25,207 nt of DNA from a virus. Below are positions 3,377-17,001 of the stretch, in pieces (position 1 is the first letter of the stretch; each line of letters begins with the position of its first letter). Under the pieces are notes generated by a model, which saw only the letters and a program-made list of their open reading frames with translations, did no database searches and was not told the DNA's origin. The DNA lies in the IMG/VR virus record IMGVR_UViG_3300000405_000044, positions 1-25,207 of that record. The stretch is one strand, 5' to 3'. Made by a program: the position numbers and the translations under genes.

Positions 3377-4792
3377 ATGAAGAAGAGATACAGTTCCAAG
3401 TTAAATTTCAGCAAAGAAGATTTTAAAGCCTCTGTTAACATTGGTGCAAGTGGTATCAATATGCCTTACGATAAAGAAGGCGGTTACGGGTTTGAAACTA
3501 AAAGCTTCGGTTCTATATTCGGCTCGATTAACAGCTCTAAGTTTTATGAGGGGGTTAATAACCAAAATATTATACCTAAAGAAGAAGACTTTATTGACGT
3601 GCCATTTAGATTAATTTCTTCTACTATTGTAGGTGCAGGAACTTGGAAGGCTACCGATTTTGGTAAGAATGAGTCAGTATTAAAGGGGTCAATGCCTTTA
3701 TTAGAAGGTAAACCTCTGTATAAAGATCACGAAACCGATTTAGATAACTGGGTGGGGGTTGTAAAGGCAGTTAAATGGACAGGCAGCGTAACTAAGAAAG
3801 GCGTTAAAATACCTTCAGGTATTGATGGGATTGTTTCTATAGATGCTAAAACCAATCCTAAAGTAGCTAGAGGCGTATTACTCGGAAGTATATTTTCCAA
3901 TTCAGTTACAGTTGATTTCGATTGGGAAATGAGCCACGACTATAGCAGCGAAGGTGAGTTTAACAACGCCATTGGAACTTTAGGCGGTGATGGTACGACT
4001 GTGCGTAGAGTTGTTACTAAGATTAATGACTATTATGAAAGCTCCCTGGTTTGGCTAGGTGCCGACCCATTCGCTAAAGCAATTAACGAAGAAGGCGATT
4101 TAATACACATTGACCATAGTGCTGTAGCTAACTACGCAAAAAATAAGTTCGGGTTTAAAAGCAGTCTTTCCTACGGTAAAGAGGCAAATGAGAACACGGA
4201 TAGGTACGAAAAACAAAAAAAATTCGTAATCGGCTTTGGGATTGACGAGAATGTTGTACCTTTGTCAAGAAAGGAAGAAATAAAAAAATCTGATATGAAT
4301 AAATTAGCAGCAACTCTCATAGCCGTTTTAGGCAGCTCTTTAAATCTAACTAAAAATTCAACCGACAAAGAAGCATTACAAGCTTTGGAAAATTTCGATG
4401 TGGGTTCACTTAAAACAGAAAAAGATGAGAGTGATTTAGCTATTTTGGTGGCTTTGAAAAAACAAGCCTTAGAAAATTTAGGTAAAGAAGAAGTAGATTT
4501 CGAGAATTTCGATAAAGACTACGAGTTTGCTAACAAGGCAGAACTTAAGAAGTTGAGAAAATCTAAAAAAGATTTTGCAAAAAAATTACAGGATAGTGAG
4601 GATGAAATCGAGAGCCTGGAATCCAATATTTCTGAATTAGAGCCTATGTCTAAAGTAGGCAAGAAATTCAGCAAACAGAAAAAAGACGAAGCAATTAGAT
4701 TATACAAGTTGACAGTGGGTGGGACAAAGCTGAGGCTTCTGTCGTGTCTCTATTTGATAAAGCCACTACTGATGAAGTTGAAGGACTTTTAA
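3377..4792 (+). CDS. Prohead protease with C-terminal scaffold-like coiled coil (3' end out of frame)
   Basis: Residues ~85-250 resemble the caudovirus prohead serine protease family. KDH with candidate catalytic H118 is followed by a VGVV strand, and a serine-rich strand S174-N-S176-V precedes the closing ESSLVWLGADPFAKA element typical of this fold. These enzymes cleave scaffold and capsid N-termini during head maturation. Residues ~360-440 are highly charged, with Lys/Glu/Asp heptad-like helices that suit an internal scaffold, so protease and scaffold appear to be one gene. After residue ~447 (4717) the reading (GGTKLRLLSC and on) loses this character, while the -1 frame continues sensibly to 4974. 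The stop at 4792 is therefore probably not the natural end; the joined product would be about 532 residues. The gene lies directly before the decoration and capsid genes. Confidence 0.8.
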   Translation: MKKRYSSKLNFSKEDFKASVNIGASGINMPYDKEGGYGFETKSFGSIFGSINSSKFYEGVNNQNIIPKEEDFIDVPFRLISSTIVGAGTWKATDFGKNESVLKGSMPLLEGKPLYKDHETDLDNWVGVVKAVKWTGSVTKKGVKIPSGIDGIVSIDAKTNPKVARGVLLGSIFSNSVTVDFDWEMSHDYSSEGEFNNAIGTLGGDGTTVRRVVTKINDYYESSLVWLGADPFAKAINEEGDLIHIDHSAVANYAKNKFGFKSSLSYGKEANENTDRYEKQKKFVIGFGIDENVVPLSRKEEIKKSDMNKLAATLIAVLGSSLNLTKNSTDKEALQALENFDVGSLKTEKDESDLAILVALKKQALENLGKEEVDFENFDKDYEFANKAELKKLRKSKKDFAKKLQDSEDEIESLESNISELEPMSKVGKKFSKQKKDEAIRLYKLTVGGTKLRLLSCLYLIKPLLMKLKDF

Positions 4793-9741: not shown

Positions 9742-11286
9742 ATGCAACCAACAGGTAGAGCGAGAGTAGAAGGTAAAATAGTAGATTTATCTTCCATAGT
9801 TAATACAGCATCTTCTGGAATCATTGCCCTCATGGGCGCAACGGAACGTGGCGAAGTCGGTAAAAGCCGGGTTGTGGGCTCTGTGGATGAATTTAAAGCC
9901 AATTTTGGTGACTTACTAGAAGACAGCGATTTCCCTTTATACTGCATCAGAGTTTTAGAGCGTGGTGGTGTGATTAGAGTTGCAAGGGCTGGGCATTATA
10001 CCGATGCGGAAGACCTTGCAACACTCGTAGGTGCTAAATCTACAATAAGCGTAGCCACTACACCTAATATTATTGATGTCGAAGCTGCAAGCATCGGAAG
10101 CTGGGGTGATGATATTACAGTAAAAGTTTTAGACGCTGCAAGTGGGGATGCTAACAAAAGAGATATTAAAGTTAGTTTGGCAGGCAGTCCGAATTTAGAT
10201 AAAACTATTTTCGAGATTAATAGCACACTGACACAAGACGACATAGATAAATTTAACGCTCAAAGCGATTTGGCTAAGTTTGCCGACACTGCAGCAGTTG
10301 GTGGGGAGCTGGGTGCTTCTGCCGATTATGCGTTAGCTGGAGGTTCTTACGATGCCACTACGGTAGTTACTGCAGATTACGAAGGTAACTTAACTGCCGG
10401 TACAGGCATTCATTCATTTGATAAGGATACGGATTTCTTTAAAATCGCCATTCCGCACATGGCAGACCCTGATATTGATGATTTGCTTATCGGTTACTGT
10501 GAAACAAGACAAGATTGTAGAGCCATTCTAAGAACTCCAATTAGTATCAGCGGTGCTACTGCTGTTGAGTACAGACAAAGAATAGATACCTACGCAGGCG
10601 GAGACCCGATCGACAGCCTTTATGGAGATATGTACTACGGTACTTTGGTTATCCAAAACCCAACAGGGGTGGGTGAGAAAAGAATTTCGGTTATCGGAGA
10701 CGTTATCGGAGCTATCAGTGCTAAGAGTGCGGACTACCCATCTTGGATTTCAGTAGCAGGAAAAGAACGTGGGGGCTTAGGTAAAAACCTAGGAATTACC
10801 TACAATTTAGCTTCTCCTGCACGTACTGCGGAATTTGATAAAGTAGATTCTGCCGGCATTAATGCAATTGTAGATGATAGAGATTACGGAATTACAATTT
10901 GGGGTAATGGAAGCCTAAGTAAAGATGATACATTATTTAAATTCACAAATGTTTGTGATTTAGTTATCTTCTTATTTAGAGTTATCCCACCACTAGCCAA
11001 GAAATCGTTGTTTGAGCCTAACGATATTGAGACTTGGAAGACTATTTACAGAAGTATAGAGCCTTACCTAAGAAGTATCAAAGACCAACGAGGTGTTTGG
11101 GATTTCTTATACCAAGGAGACCAGTTTGTTGACAGCATTGATGATATTCAAATTAACGATAGCGGCAACATAGATGCTGGAAAGTACATTTTCAATATTT
11201 GGATTAAGCCTAAAGTAGCTTTGAAATATATTGGATTTAGTGTTACAACCACCAATTCAGGTGCTTCGTTTAAAGTTCTAAAATAA
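9742..11286 (+). CDS. Tail sheath protein
   Basis: This 514-residue protein is a contractile tail sheath. The N-terminal part has the conserved opening in which strands run into MGATERGEVG and a VGSVDEFKANFG element (residues ~48-60). The C-terminal ~100 residues carry the sheath core pattern: EPNDIETWKTIYRSIEPYL, a GVWDFLYQGDQF segment, and a final strand-rich part with FNIWIKPKVALKYIGF. The sheath surrounds the tube and contracts on infection. It is followed by the tube gene after 13 nt and has its own promoter. The Gly/Ala-rich stretch (~180-215) is a variable insertion domain. Confidence 0.93.
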   Translation: MQPTGRARVEGKIVDLSSIVNTASSGIIALMGATERGEVGKSRVVGSVDEFKANFGDLLEDSDFPLYCIRVLERGGVIRVARAGHYTDAEDLATLVGAKSTISVATTPNIIDVEAASIGSWGDDITVKVLDAASGDANKRDIKVSLAGSPNLDKTIFEINSTLTQDDIDKFNAQSDLAKFADTAAVGGELGASADYALAGGSYDATTVVTADYEGNLTAGTGIHSFDKDTDFFKIAIPHMADPDIDDLLIGYCETRQDCRAILRTPISISGATAVEYRQRIDTYAGGDPIDSLYGDMYYGTLVIQNPTGVGEKRISVIGDVIGAISAKSADYPSWISVAGKERGGLGKNLGITYNLASPARTAEFDKVDSAGINAIVDDRDYGITIWGNGSLSKDDTLFKFTNVCDLVIFLFRVIPPLAKKSLFEPNDIETWKTIYRSIEPYLRSIKDQRGVWDFLYQGDQFVDSIDDIQINDSGNIDAGKYIFNIWIKPKVALKYIGFSVTTTNSGASFKVLK

Positions 11287-11299
11287 AAAAAAATAAATT

Positions 11300-11755
11300 A
11301 TGCCATATACAGACCCCAGTAAAGTATTTAATTTCGCCATCGAGATAAATGGCATTGATCAATTCTTAATACAAGAAGTACAGAAGCCTAGTGTTTCTGT
11401 TCAGGCAGCCGAACATGGAGACTATAATTCCACCATCAAAACAGCTGGTGGGGTTGAAGTAGGTGATGCAGAGCTTAAGAAGATTAAGCCAACCCCTGAA
11501 GGTGACAGTTTTGCGTGGTTATGGCTTAACCAGGCGCAAGACATGAATCTAAAAAGAGGTGGATTAGCGTTGGAGTATAAAAGAGATATTATCTTTAAAG
11601 AATTAGCCCATAATGGTATTGCAACTAACATTTGGTTATGGCAAGGTTGCTGGGTTAAAGAGGTGTCTGAGGACAACTACGTACGAGGCAATCAAAGCGA
11701 TAACGTTACGGAAACGGTAACGCTTTCGGTAGATAAGGTCGTAAAGATAAAGTAA
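11300..11755 (+). CDS. Tail tube protein
   Basis: This 151-residue protein has the short beta-barrel pattern of T4 gp19-like/CIS inner tube proteins. FNFAIEINGIDQFLIQEV comes near the start, then a GDAELKKIKPTPEGD loop, a DMNLKRGGLALEYKRDI segment and an ending strand VTETVTLSVDKVVKI. It polymerises into the tube through which DNA passes. Its position directly after the sheath and before the terminator and tail chaperone is standard for myoviruses. Confidence 0.9.
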   Translation: MPYTDPSKVFNFAIEINGIDQFLIQEVQKPSVSVQAAEHGDYNSTIKTAGGVEVGDAELKKIKPTPEGDSFAWLWLNQAQDMNLKRGGLALEYKRDIIFKELAHNGIATNIWLWQGCWVKEVSEDNYVRGNQSDNVTETVTLSVDKVVKIK

Positions 11756-11782: not shown

Positions 11783-11810
11783 ACCTGAATGATAATCATT
11801 CGGGTTTTTT
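11783..11810 (+). terminator. Rho-independent terminator after the tube gene
   Basis: ACCTGAATG (11783-11791) pairs with CATTCGGGT (11797-11805) with one T-G pair and a 5-nt loop, followed by a T run to 11810. It lies between tube and tail chaperone genes and should reduce expression of the chaperone and tape measure relative to sheath and tube. Confidence 0.88.
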
Positions 11811-11827
11811 CACTAAAAAAAAATACA

Positions 11828-12619
11828 ATGGAAACAACTCATGTGTTCAATTTATTAAGCGGTGTAGAATGTGAAATAAAAGAACTCACAGGAAAGCACC
11901 AAAAGATGCTAACAGCAGGGTCAAAAGACTTCGAAAAAAAGCTGTCCGCTATGTTATCCGACGTTATCGTACGGATAGGAGACGAAAGACAGATAGACGA
12001 AGAGTTTATTAAAGGTATGCTATCGTGCGATAAGAAGAAAGCCTTAGTAGAGATTAGGCAATTCTCATTGGGGTTTGAAGAGACTTTCTCATTCACTTAC
12101 GACTATAGAGATTTGGACAACACAAAACAAACACACGAAGTTAATGTTCATTTGGAAGACGGAAACTTTCCTTCTAGGACTGTGAAAAGAGAAGGCGAAG
12201 AAGGACTAGTGGATGCCGATTATACCGACTATGCGGATGTACTCGAGAACAAAGATAAATTTATTACTCTGCCAAGAAGCGGTAAAGAGGTTAGATTTAC
12301 AATGCTGGATGGGCGTGGCGAAGCTATTGGAAGTGCGGCAAAGAAAGCAGATAGAAGTTCTCACACGCTTTTGAAAATGAGAAGGCCTGTTTACTTCCAT
12401 AAAAAAGAAGGTGGTAATGAAGCTGTACCAATCCAACTTGACTTGGATGAACTAAGTTATATGGATATAGAACATTTGAGAAAGGAAATTAAGCTACATG
12501 AAGGCTTTGTAGACACTGAAATTGTTTTTGAACATCCAAATAGCGAATTAGGTGAGGACGACCTTAGAGAGGACGTGTTAGGCATTACGGCTTTTTTCTT
12601 CCCATCAGAAGCACTCTAA
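11828..12619 (+). CDS. Tail assembly chaperone, short (zero-frame) form
   Basis: This 263-residue product of the gene between tube and tape measure fits the myoviral tail assembly chaperone. The N-terminus has CEIKELTGKHQKML. The middle has ITLPRSGKEVRFTMLDG, the usual peptide-binding-like core. The C-terminus runs DIEHLRKEIKLHEGFVDTE to the family-typical ending ITAFFFPSEAL. Such chaperones coat the tape measure while the tube assembles. ATG 11828 is preferred to an upstream in-frame ATA/ATG region at 11789, because that lies inside the terminator hairpin. A slippery heptamer at 12592-12598, within the FFF codons, allows a longer form. Confidence 0.85.
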   Translation: METTHVFNLLSGVECEIKELTGKHQKMLTAGSKDFEKKLSAMLSDVIVRIGDERQIDEEFIKGMLSCDKKKALVEIRQFSLGFEETFSFTYDYRDLDNTKQTHEVNVHLEDGNFPSRTVKREGEEGLVDADYTDYADVLENKDKFITLPRSGKEVRFTMLDGRGEAIGSAAKKADRSSHTLLKMRRPVYFHKKEGGNEAVPIQLDLDELSYMDIEHLRKEIKLHEGFVDTEIVFEHPNSELGEDDLREDVLGITAFFFPSEAL

Positions 12620-12762
12620 TAAATGACTATTGCTACTTGACTTATGGTAGCAGTCTCCCGATGGGATACGAAGATTTCTTATCTTTGTCTTATGATGAAC
12701 GGTGTTCTCTTAAAAGTTGGATTAAAGCACAACGTAAGTATGAAGAAGAAAATAGTAAATAG
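11828..12762 (+). CDS. Tail assembly chaperone, long form made by -1 frameshifting
   Basis: After the slip at 12592-12598, reading resumes in the -1 frame at CTT 12598-12600 and runs to TAG 12760-12762, adding 54 codons (about 311 residues in total). The added part includes DYCYLTYG, then MGYEDFLSLSYDERC and LKSWIKAQRKYEE, which has the look of the C-terminal domain of the long tail chaperone (G-T type): an aromatic start, a GYEDFLSL helix and a charged final helix. In related phages the long form recruits the tube while the short form coats the tape measure. The -1 frame has no good start of its own upstream: it is closed by TAG at 12565-12567. The sequence-level evidence is strong; production is unproven. 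Confidence 0.8.
12592..12598 (+). promoter_or_regulatory. -1 ribosomal frameshift site T TTT TTC
   Basis: The heptamer has the canonical X XXY YYZ form and is in the correct phase: zero-frame codons are GCT TTT TTC. Both tRNAs can re-pair one base back on TTT TTT. It lies 7 codons before the zero-frame stop and inside the window where the -1 frame is open (from 12568). Confidence 0.85.
12600..12666 (+). other. Possible RNA structure stimulating the frameshift
   Basis: TCCCATC (12600-12606) is complementary to GATGGGA (12660-12666). Inside it, ATTGCTAC (12629-12636) pairs with GTAGCAGT (12647-12654) with one G-U pair and a 10-nt loop. The outer stem begins 1 nt after the heptamer, closer than the usual 5-9 nt, and a smaller hairpin TCCC-GAT-GGGA (12656-12666) competes with it. 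A structure is therefore plausible but not certain. Confidence 0.45.
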
Positions 12763-12771
12763 TAGATAGTT

Positions 12772-14847
12772 ATGGCAACAGGCAGTTTCGGAGGTAGTGA
12801 TTTAGGAATGGGTATTTCTTTTACCTTGAAAGACAGGTTCTCCAAAACCGCCAATAGGATACAAGGTAAGATGCGTGGCCTTAGCTCCTCTGCTTCTAGG
12901 AACTTCAAAAAATTCAACGGCACCATAAAACAACACGCCAAAGCCATAGCAGCTTACGGTTCTATAGCTTTAATCGGATTAGGCGTTGCAGCCGCAGCAG
13001 CCTATAAACAGTTCGTTAAGTTTGACGACCACATGGCAGATGTCCGAAAGACTGTCGGTCTTACAGAAAAGGAAACCGAAACGTTCGGAAATACCATACT
13101 TGAGATGAGTAAGAAAACCCGAACCTCAGCGGATGATTTAGTTACTATAGCAGCTATTGGTGGTCAAATGGGTATCGGCAAAAAAGGTATAGAGGGTTTC
13201 ACTAAATCTGTGAATGTTTTAGGAGTAGCTATAGGAGATGAATTCGGCGGTGTGGATGAAATGACTAATTCAGTCGGTAAGTTGCGTAACGTTATGTCCG
13301 ATTTCAAGACTGATGATGTAGGCTCCGATGTTCTGCACATAGGTAATGCCTTAAACTCTTTAAGTTCTTCTGGACAGGCGACCGCAGGTACAGTTTCAAA
13401 TATGGCTAAGCGTATTTTAAGTAGAACAGCCGGTTTAAAAATAGCGAGTAGCGATATTTTAGGACTTGCTGCAGTATTGGAGGAAGGAGGCCTGAGAGCA
13501 GAGATTGCAGGATCAGGTACAGCTCGACTACTTTCAACTATGTCAAATAATTATACAAAGTTTGCTAATGTTGCAGGAATGAGTTCTAAGAAATTTGCAG
13601 ACATATTAAATAATGATGCGAATGAGGCTTTAACTGTATTTATGAAGGGTTTAAAAGGTTCAAATTTAGAAGGTATTGAATATAATGCGCTATTAAAAGA
13701 TTTAGGAATTAATGGCGATGGTTTGAAGGCTGTTTTAGGCGTTTTAACTAAAAACATGGGTAAATTAACGGATAAACAAAAGCAAGTTAAAGCTGCATTG
13801 AAAGGCACTAACTCTGTTATGGGTGAATATAATATCAAAAATGAAAATGCAGCGGCACAAATAGCTAAACTTAAAAATAAAGTGAGTGCCCTTGTAATAC
13901 AAGTAGGCAAGAAATTACGGCCTGCTTTCGGAGCTATTGCAGCTGCTGTGTCTAAAGTTATTACTGTTTTTGTCGATTGGTGGAAGAGTTTAAGCCCTTT
14001 CACGAAGGGGGTATTAAAATATATAGCTATTGGTTTGGGTGCACTTGCGGTCGCTCTTACAGTTTATGCAGCCGCTCAGGCTATTGCTACTACGGCTATT
14101 TGGGCTAATACAGTCGCTTTACTTGCCAATCCTATTACTTGGATTATACTAGGCATTGTAATTCTAGTGGCCACCCTTATCCAACTTCAAAAACAATTTC
14201 AGATATTTACAAAAACTTGGGAGTTTATTAAATTCGTGTTCACAAAAATTTGGGATTTTATTAAGTTCGTCTCTATAGGTATTTGGAAAGTAGTAAAGGC
14301 ATATTTGATGTTTATTTTCAATATCTACAAGACTATATTTATGGCTATTTGGAACGTAATAAGTACAGTATTTACATGGATTTCAGATAAGGTGGCGTGG
14401 CTCATGGATATATTTGTTTCATTGGGTACTTCTATGTACGACTTAGGCTCAAATATTGTGTCCTCTGTTTGGGGCGGTATCAAGTCAGGATGGCGTGCGC
14501 TTGTTGACTGGGTAAAAAACGCAGCGGCCGGGTTAGTTGGTTTTATTACCAGCCCTTTTGAATCTATCGGAAATTCTATTTCTGGCTTATTTGGGGGCGG
14601 AGATGGTTCAGGGCAAGGCGTTAATAACAGCGGTGGAGGTGGTGGGGCAACCAACACTCCTGCTCCTGTTTCGGTTGCTTCTGGAAATCATTTTATACCT
14701 ATGAGTGGGCAAAAAACAGTGACTAATAATAACAATACTACACAAGAAAAAATGCAACCCATTATCATAAGAAATGAAATGGATGGCGAAGCTATTTCAG
14801 AACAAATTATAGAAAAGCAGAAAAGGAATAAATCAAGAAAAGAATAA
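12772..14847 (+). CDS. Tape measure protein
   Basis: This 691-residue protein resembles the phage minor tail/tape measure family (PhageMin_Tail). After a basic helical N-terminus, residues ~83-260 contain the conserved segment from FDDHMADVRKTVGLTEKE through KKTRTSADDLVTIAAIGGQMG to the GSGTARLLS element. Residues ~410-560 hold several hydrophobic segments, expected to enter the host membrane on ejection. A Gly-rich linker (~605-625) precedes a polar C-terminal tail. The tape measure sets tail length. At roughly 0.15 nm per residue, 691 residues would give a tail of about 100 nm. It follows the frameshifted chaperone by 9 nt. Confidence 0.9.
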   Translation: MATGSFGGSDLGMGISFTLKDRFSKTANRIQGKMRGLSSSASRNFKKFNGTIKQHAKAIAAYGSIALIGLGVAAAAAYKQFVKFDDHMADVRKTVGLTEKETETFGNTILEMSKKTRTSADDLVTIAAIGGQMGIGKKGIEGFTKSVNVLGVAIGDEFGGVDEMTNSVGKLRNVMSDFKTDDVGSDVLHIGNALNSLSSSGQATAGTVSNMAKRILSRTAGLKIASSDILGLAAVLEEGGLRAEIAGSGTARLLSTMSNNYTKFANVAGMSSKKFADILNNDANEALTVFMKGLKGSNLEGIEYNALLKDLGINGDGLKAVLGVLTKNMGKLTDKQKQVKAALKGTNSVMGEYNIKNENAAAQIAKLKNKVSALVIQVGKKLRPAFGAIAAAVSKVITVFVDWWKSLSPFTKGVLKYIAIGLGALAVALTVYAAAQAIATTAIWANTVALLANPITWIILGIVILVATLIQLQKQFQIFTKTWEFIKFVFTKIWDFIKFVSIGIWKVVKAYLMFIFNIYKTIFMAIWNVISTVFTWISDKVAWLMDIFVSLGTSMYDLGSNIVSSVWGGIKSGWRALVDWVKNAAAGLVGFITSPFESIGNSISGLFGGGDGSGQGVNNSGGGGGATNTPAPVSVASGNHFIPMSGQKTVTNNNNTTQEKMQPIIIRNEMDGEAISEQIIEKQKRNKSRKE

Positions 14848-15622: not shown

Positions 15623-17001
15623 TGTTAGCACCGTATTACAAAATATATATCGGAAAGGACAAAGAAGATATTACTGATTTGTGCACTCGATTTGTTTTTG
15701 AGGATTGCTCAGAAGAGGACAGTTTACTCACCTTTAAAATGGTGGTAGACGATAAATTTGACGAGAAAATTGCTGCGGGTAATATCGTTTATTTTAAATT
15801 TGGGTACATAGGTTTACAATTATCTGAAGTACACAAATCGAGGATTTCGGATATTAAATATAACTACAGTGGCGAGATTACGGGCACTATTACTTGTTTG
15901 GATTTGGGCACTGTTCTTAGAAAAGTGCCCTCCAATAAAATATGGAAGAAAAAGACTAGTTCAGATATAGCCAAAGAAATAGCTGTTAAGTATGGCATGG
16001 AATACGATATAGAGAAAACAGATAAAGTTTGGGATCAATTGCCACAAGGCAACAGAACTGATTCCACTTTTTTGGGTTACTTGGCAGAACGTGAGAAGTC
16101 GGGGACATACATAACCTACATTCGAGGCACTACTTTATTTTTCAAACAGCGTGATTTAAAACGTAAAAGCGTCAGATTGTTTGATTACAAAAGTGAAGAC
16201 GGCACGGTTAAAGGCTTCTCAGCTACTGAAAATACAAGCTCTCAAGATGGGGCGGCTACTGCTGTGAATATCTCTAGTGGGGATAAGAAGCAAGGTACAG
16301 AAGAAGAAAAAGAGGTGAACAACGAGACAGAAGAGAAAACAGGCACTTTGGGTACGCACAACCTAAATTACACTAGGGTAAATTCAGCTGGTGAAGTTGT
16401 GGGATCGACCGGCCCAGGGTTAGGTGTTAAGGTAGGAGTAAGAGGGGGGTTTTTTACAGAAGCCGCCCCGATAAAAAAAACAACCCCAAATACGCCTGGC
16501 ATAAGTTACACCAAGGTAAATTCAGAAGGCGAAGTTGTGCAAGCAGCCGGGCCGGGATTAGGCGTTAAGGTAGGGGTAAAGGAAGGGTTGTTTTTTCCGA
16601 GCAGAAACATAAATGAACCGACAAGCGATAAACAGGAAGCTGAGAATGTGGCGAACAGCAAGAAGAAGCAAGCCACTTTAGATTCCTTCACAGGAAAACT
16701 GAGGTTGACTGGGCAACCTTCGATAGTACCTAATGTTATAATTACAGTTGCTGGGGTAGCCAACAGGCATAAAGGTAATTGGTACGTCGTGAAAGTTACC
16801 CACAGCTTAACAGAGGGTGGGTACACTACTAGTTTAGATTTGAAAAGAAATGGAACAAGCATGGGTAATAAAACAAAAGTCTCAGATAAAGCAGACGACA
16901 ATAAAGCAACAGATGCTAATACTTCTGTTGGAGACGAAGACCCCAAAGATGGGCAGATAATACCAATAACAGTAAATGCGGAGGGCGTGATACTTGACTA
17001 G
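15622..17001 (+). CDS. Baseplate hub protein (late control gpD / gp27-like) with internal repeat insertion
   Basis: This 459-residue protein has the gpD/gp27 plan. N-terminal strands (YYKIYIGKDKEDITD) and a FGYIG segment form the first tube-like domain. Next comes a SSDIAKEIAVKYGM helix with STFLGYLAEREKSGTYI. The C-terminal barrel domain (residues ~355-415) has LRLTGQPSIVPNVIITV and YVVKVTHSLTEGGY. The trimeric hub connects spike and tube. Between the domains lies a low-complexity insertion (~205-350) with two copies of a ~29-residue repeat (residues 250-278 and 296-325). A further VNAEGV at the C-terminus resembles the repeat core. The insertion is unusual for the family. Confidence 0.85.
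   Translation: MLAPYYKIYIGKDKEDITDLCTRFVFEDCSEEDSLLTFKMVVDDKFDEKIAAGNIVYFKFGYIGLQLSEVHKSRISDIKYNYSGEITGTITCLDLGTVLRKVPSNKIWKKKTSSDIAKEIAVKYGMEYDIEKTDKVWDQLPQGNRTDSTFLGYLAEREKSGTYITYIRGTTLFFKQRDLKRKSVRLFDYKSEDGTVKGFSATENTSSQDGAATAVNISSGDKKQGTEEEKEVNNETEEKTGTLGTHNLNYTRVNSAGEVVGSTGPGLGVKVGVRGGFFTEAAPIKKTTPNTPGISYTKVNSEGEVVQAAGPGLGVKVGVKEGLFFPSRNINEPTSDKQEAENVANSKKKQATLDSFTGKLRLTGQPSIVPNVIITVAGVANRHKGNWYVVKVTHSLTEGGYTTSLDLKRNGTSMGNKTKVSDKADDNKATDANTSVGDEDPKDGQIIPITVNAEGVILD
16369..16455 (+). repeat. Internal protein repeat, copy 1 (hub)
   Basis: The 29 codons read YTRVNSAGEVV, then a variable GST, then GPGLGVKVGVRGGFF. They match copy 2 at most positions, with many synonymous differences at the DNA level, so the protein sequence is conserved rather than recently duplicated. 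Confidence 0.9.
16507..16596 (+). repeat. Internal protein repeat, copy 2 (hub)
   Basis: The 30 codons read YTKVNSEGEVV, then QAA, then GPGLGVKVGVKEGLFF, starting exactly 138 nt after copy 1. The spacer between the copies is Thr/Pro-rich (EAAPIKKTTPNTPG). Confidence 0.9.

Follow-up and report, generated by a model that had tools for sequence, protein, structure and literature searches.

Does the open reading frame (ORF) that lies between the tail tube and tape measure genes of this virus yield a single protein, or does −1 ribosomal frameshifting near its 3′ end give rise to a second, longer one? To answer this, we analyzed the whole 25,207-nt stretch of IMG/VR record IMGVR_UViG_3300000405_000044 (hereafter the window), for which a preliminary description had proposed a frameshifted tail assembly chaperone in this position. 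Profile searches gave the order sheath, tube, short ORF, −1 extension and tape measure, bearing out the placement between the tube and tape measure genes, which is that of a G/GT-type chaperone. The features of the locus are:

9742–11286, plus strand: tail sheath gene (phrog_23 tail sheath, E 1.1e-40)
11300–11755, plus strand: tail tube gene (PF06841 Phage_T4_gp19, E 1.5e-11; phrog_4542)
11828–12619, plus strand: predicted short form of the tail assembly chaperone, T4 gp26/gp51-like (homologue starts, profile–profile comparison, fold)
12592–12598, plus strand: predicted slippery heptamer T_TTT_TTC, −1 site (phase, and identity in relatives)
12598–12762, plus strand: predicted −1 extension, 54 codons plus TAG, T-like domain (open frame; aligned extensions and selection in relatives)
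12600–12666, plus strand: putative stem-loop, possibly stimulatory (outer CCCATC/GATGGG, inner hairpin)
12772–14847, plus strand: tape measure gene (phrog_28, E 1.8e-50; PF10145 PhageMin_Tail)

For the short ORF, we preferred the ATG at 11828, where the homologues also begin, to a start at 11789, which gives a protein of 263 aa ending at the TAA at 12617–12619. Direct reading of the codons (GGC ATT ACG GCT TTT TTC TTC CCA TCA GAA GCA CTC TAA TAA) placed T_TTT_TTC at 12592–12598 on the plus strand, in a phase of the ATG 11828 ORF that fits simultaneous −1 slippage. The zero-frame stop is the seventh codon past the heptamer, with six sense codons in between. The −1 frame is open for 54 codons (12598–12759) and ends with the TAG at 12760–12762, leaving a gap of nine bases to the start of the tape measure gene at 12772. 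The phase of the heptamer, its distance to the stop and the length of the −1 frame were therefore all as first described. Joining 11828–12598 to 12598–12759 gives a predicted long form of 311 aa. Two more copies of TTTTTTC occur in the window, one at 11805 upstream of the chaperone start and the other at 16591, out of phase within its gene. Since 20 window ORFs together contain 44 in-phase sites of the general form X_XXY_YYZ (T_TTT_TTC being represented once among them), the motif on its own is weak evidence, and we took conservation of the heptamer, rather than its mere presence, to be decisive for assigning the frameshift site.

A tblastn search returned two gut phage records with 23–26% identity, which we used to reach more loci. 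We analyzed 12 distinct relatives (L003, L004, L006, L007, L010, L011, L012, L013, L014, L016, L017 and L019), whose protein identity to the window was 18–26% where aligned. T_TTT_TTC was present in the same phase and place in all 12 of them as well as in the window, and also in L005. Throughout this close family, the heptamer lies four to eight codons ahead of the stop and the −1 ORF comprises 50–61 codons. Past the zero-frame stop, the −1 frames of L003 and L004 differ from each other with a pS of 0.36 and a pN of 0.05. A search for closer relatives via sheath and tube returned near-identical sibling contigs only. In the deposited record of L017 (KX501134, 200–430), a small ORF annotated on the complementary strand overlies the chaperone, and the extension is unannotated.

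The heptamer was also found well outside the close family, among others in several T4-group phages. In the cyanophages S-SSM7 and S-RIM8 as well as in Vibrio PC-Liy1, Citrobacter Ci1 and Aeromonas Asswx_1, the gp26 gene closes with TTT TTC Nnn stop and has the same heptamer in the same phase as the window; its −1 frame runs into either an annotated small ‘gp51’ or an unannotated gap. An IMG/VR survey recovered T_TTT_TTC in 82 of 82 loci, comprising 80 of 80 cyanophage-like loci (the best 80 of >590 candidates, weighted toward S-SSM7 relatives) and 2 of 2 KVP40-like ones, with an open −1 ORF ahead of the tape measure gene. The expectation of the preliminary description that homologues would keep the heptamer was thus confirmed, and the situation it had named as contrary evidence, homologues without a slippery site and with a separate start for the −1 ORF, was the opposite of what we saw in nearly all relatives. 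Across 101 loci, the T run is exactly six and the next base is always C, and the preceding codon always ends in T, though the residue it encodes may be S, D, N, G or A. In the remainder of these genes, Phe is encoded by TTT 643 times and by TTC 242 times, and just 59% of the Ser codons end in T. Such invariance would be very unlikely without constraint at the nucleotide level, bearing in mind that the loci are related and not independent. Moreover, the cyanophage −1 frame had a median pN/pS of 0.25, the other frames giving 1.15 and 2.5. By this measure, which was taken in relatives rather than in the window, the extension frame is under purifying selection.

Our reading, to which we assign a probability of roughly 95%, is that of a gene for a G/GT-type tail assembly chaperone whose two forms arise by −1 slippage at T_TTT_TTC. 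The pattern of conservation supports the mechanism of the preliminary description, namely a frameshifted chaperone. Most ribosomes would terminate at the TAA at 12617–12619 and produce the short form. A minority would slip back one base, with the two tRNA-Phe on TTT TTC at 12593–12598 re-pairing with TTT TTT, and would then read 54 more codons, which add a tail domain at the C-terminus and so make the long form. The −1 frameshifted tail assembly chaperone of lambda, gpG/gpGT, serves as the precedent (Levin 1993; Xu, Hendrix, Duda 2004, both as relayed in PMC5009743). By analogy, the short part may form a coat around the tape measure protein, with the tail domain recruiting tube subunits during assembly; more generally, we infer the slippage, its efficiency, and the roles and binding partners of both proteins. 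As in lambda, two ORFs that overlap separate the major tail protein gene from that of the tape measure, the first ORF has an in-phase heptamer close to its end, and gene callers overlook the −1 extension. Unlike in lambda, the slippery heptamer is a different one, the phage has a contractile tail with a T4 gp19-like tube, and no sequence similarity to gpG/gpGT was established here.

Alternatively, the extension could be a separate small protein, which we consider highly improbable. Its translation would begin either at an internal start codon (TTG 12637 or ATG 12661) or by re-initiation once ribosomes have terminated on the short ORF. The extension had originally been described as lacking a start of its own. 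For the window this is inexact, as its −1 frame contains TTG 12637, ATG 12661 and TTG 12685, but ten relatives have no ATG, GTG or TTG within the first 25 extension codons; in L003, L004 and L007, the relevant part of the extension is free of all three. Ahead of the candidate starts in the window, we found no convincing purine-rich ribosome-binding site at the usual distance, and a late start would drop the part of the extension adjacent to the junction. Consistent with separate translation, a small ‘gp51’ is annotated on its own in cyanophage records, and the Ackermannviridae-type Vibrio phage SD25 (L028, 3500–3695) lacks TTTTTTC and has an extension ORF that starts at an overlapping TAATG, which suggests coupled translation in place of frameshifting in that phage. 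For the loci that do carry the heptamer, however, an independent start would leave its invariance without a reason.

Still less likely is transcriptional slippage, in which RNA polymerase would add a U on the T run and thereby give access to the same downstream frame. The six-T run required for this is present and the outcome for the frame would be alike, but runs of six bases are short for RNA polymerase slippage. In addition, such a mechanism would tolerate or even favour longer runs and would have no need of a particular phase, whereas the run in the 101 loci is never longer than six, always ends in C and occurs in one phase. Finally, the chance that the heptamer and the open −1 frame coincide by accident or reflect a sequencing indel is negligible: the 44 in-phase heptamers in 20 ORFs and one indel elsewhere in the record speak for it, but the slip site is unchanged in L001, a sibling contig of 99.94% identity, which excludes an assembly indel there, and conservation in distant relatives together with selection on the −1 frame already refutes it.

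In a head maturation protease-like ORF of the window (3377–4792), the frame is lost near 4720 (4700–4750). The siblings L126 and L127 carry one extra base near 4720 compared to this record, and intact copies of the protease exist. We therefore rejected recoding of this ORF in favour of a single-base assembly deletion.

The window was also searched for an RNA element that might stimulate frameshifting. The stem-loop at 12600–12666 has a predicted stability of −20.1 kcal/mol (z −2.3), and 6 of 200 shuffled sequences were as stable. The downstream structure varied among relatives, and a search of 77 distinct cyanophage-like sequences returned no conserved RNA structure downstream. Given the moderate stability in the window and the lack of a consensus among relatives, we do not claim a stimulatory RNA structure.

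To which family does the chaperone belong? Neither the short form nor the extension of the window had a match in Pfam or PHROG. As the window protein thus had no direct profile match to PF12322 or phrog_150, we refer to it as gp26/gp51-like rather than as a Pfam-level member. Members of the close family did match PF12322 and phrog_150, with L010, L012, L013 and L014 scoring above the Pfam curated cut-off. Aligning the window family to the T4-group gp26/gp51 set with hhalign gave an E of 2.7e-7 (Prob 93%), with the alignment extending through the final FF. Single-sequence comparison of the window with T4 gp26 and gp51 was uninformative, and only the profile–profile approach worked. When searched against BFVD, an AlphaFold2 model of the short form (pLDDT 76) matched entries named ‘T4-like baseplate hub assembly protein’ (E 1e-10 and 7e-10); it had no match among solved structures. 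Taken together, the profiles and the predicted fold support the assignment of the short form to the T4 gp26/gp51 type.

T4 itself, as well as phiP4-3, Aeromonas 31, PhT2 and SFHK24, has a short gp26 and a longer gp51, indicating that T4 makes both forms from two genes. In these phages, the gp51 tail follows in frame from the slip position onward, and the last 50–60 residues of gp51 match the −1 extensions of cyanophages (E 3.7e-14; no column shuffle out of 100 did as well). The similarity between the window-type and T4-group extensions is weak by sequence (score 15.8, shuffled maximum 15.2), and the comparison of the window-type extension with the gp51 C-terminus was not significant (29 of 100 shuffles were as good), which is why we claim no homology between these two. 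A 2016 review had named T4 as an exception to chaperone frameshifting (PMC5009743). According to citing papers, Vladimirov, Gautam and Davidson (2022) described T4 gp26 and gp51 as tail assembly chaperones encoded by separate genes (PMC10885494, PRFect), and the occurrence of poly-T slip signals in the chaperone genes of T4-like phages is credited to the same work (PMC12846349). As cited there, the two-gene explanation for T4 is already published, which reduces the novelty of our observation.

The window thus shares with T4 gp26/gp51 (PF12322, phrog_150) the short-form profile and predicted fold, and T4-type gp51 combines a short-like domain with an in-frame tail at the point where frameshifting relatives carry the slip site. 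T4-type enteric phages have two separate genes and no frameshift, whereas the window has a single gene with T_TTT_TTC and a divergent extension. In T4-like cyanophages and KVP40-like phages, gp26 and the small ‘gp51’ resemble the window in having the identical heptamer in the same phase; there, the −1 ORF has 57–66 codons and the next gene encodes a long tail protein. Their zero-frame stop follows one sense codon past the heptamer, compared to six in the window, and their extension is weakly similar in sequence to that of the window. The chaperone genes of Vandenendeviridae/Andersonviridae, likewise from myoviruses, also finish with a poly-T slip motif, GTTTTT, and their −1 frame is always open (PMC12846349); the motif and the phage families differ from those of the window.

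Frameshifting is in itself a well-known phage device, which a divergent and unannotated phage group would now join with its chaperones. The most interesting part is the breadth of conservation, with a single heptamer unchanged over very large protein divergence. We see the odds as evenly balanced on whether T_TTT_TTC frameshifting is ancestral in the gp26/gp51 family, with the T4 pair having arisen by later duplication and in-frame fusion at the slip position and the shift having changed in Bacillus SP-15 and Listeria LIS04. This ancestral reading spans unannotated gut and environmental phages, cyanophages and KVP40. When annotating phages of the T4 group and their relatives, we suggest seeking T_TTT_TTC ahead of the stop of gp26-like genes; a small ‘gp51’ or an unannotated gap behind the heptamer is probably the tail domain of the longer form.

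Several phages showed other arrangements. In S-SCSM1 (L025, NC_070962; 3675–3874), the heptamer is kept and followed by an 11-base insertion, which places the extension in the +1/−2 frame; the explanation could be slippage by −2, independent initiation or an error in the sequence. Alishewanella phage Slicko01 (L121, reverse strand, 3′ end of the CDS at 1548–2369) has an extension-like stretch, SPESISKMSVSKYDFYISALEKDLKDKD, in the +1/−2 frame without a T run. In SP-15 (L118, 1390–1640) and LIS04 (L119, 1410–1680), the gp26-like gene has TTT TTT at its end, in another phase, and it is the +1 (or −2) frame that encodes the conserved extension, so that the direction of the frameshift has probably changed in this branch.
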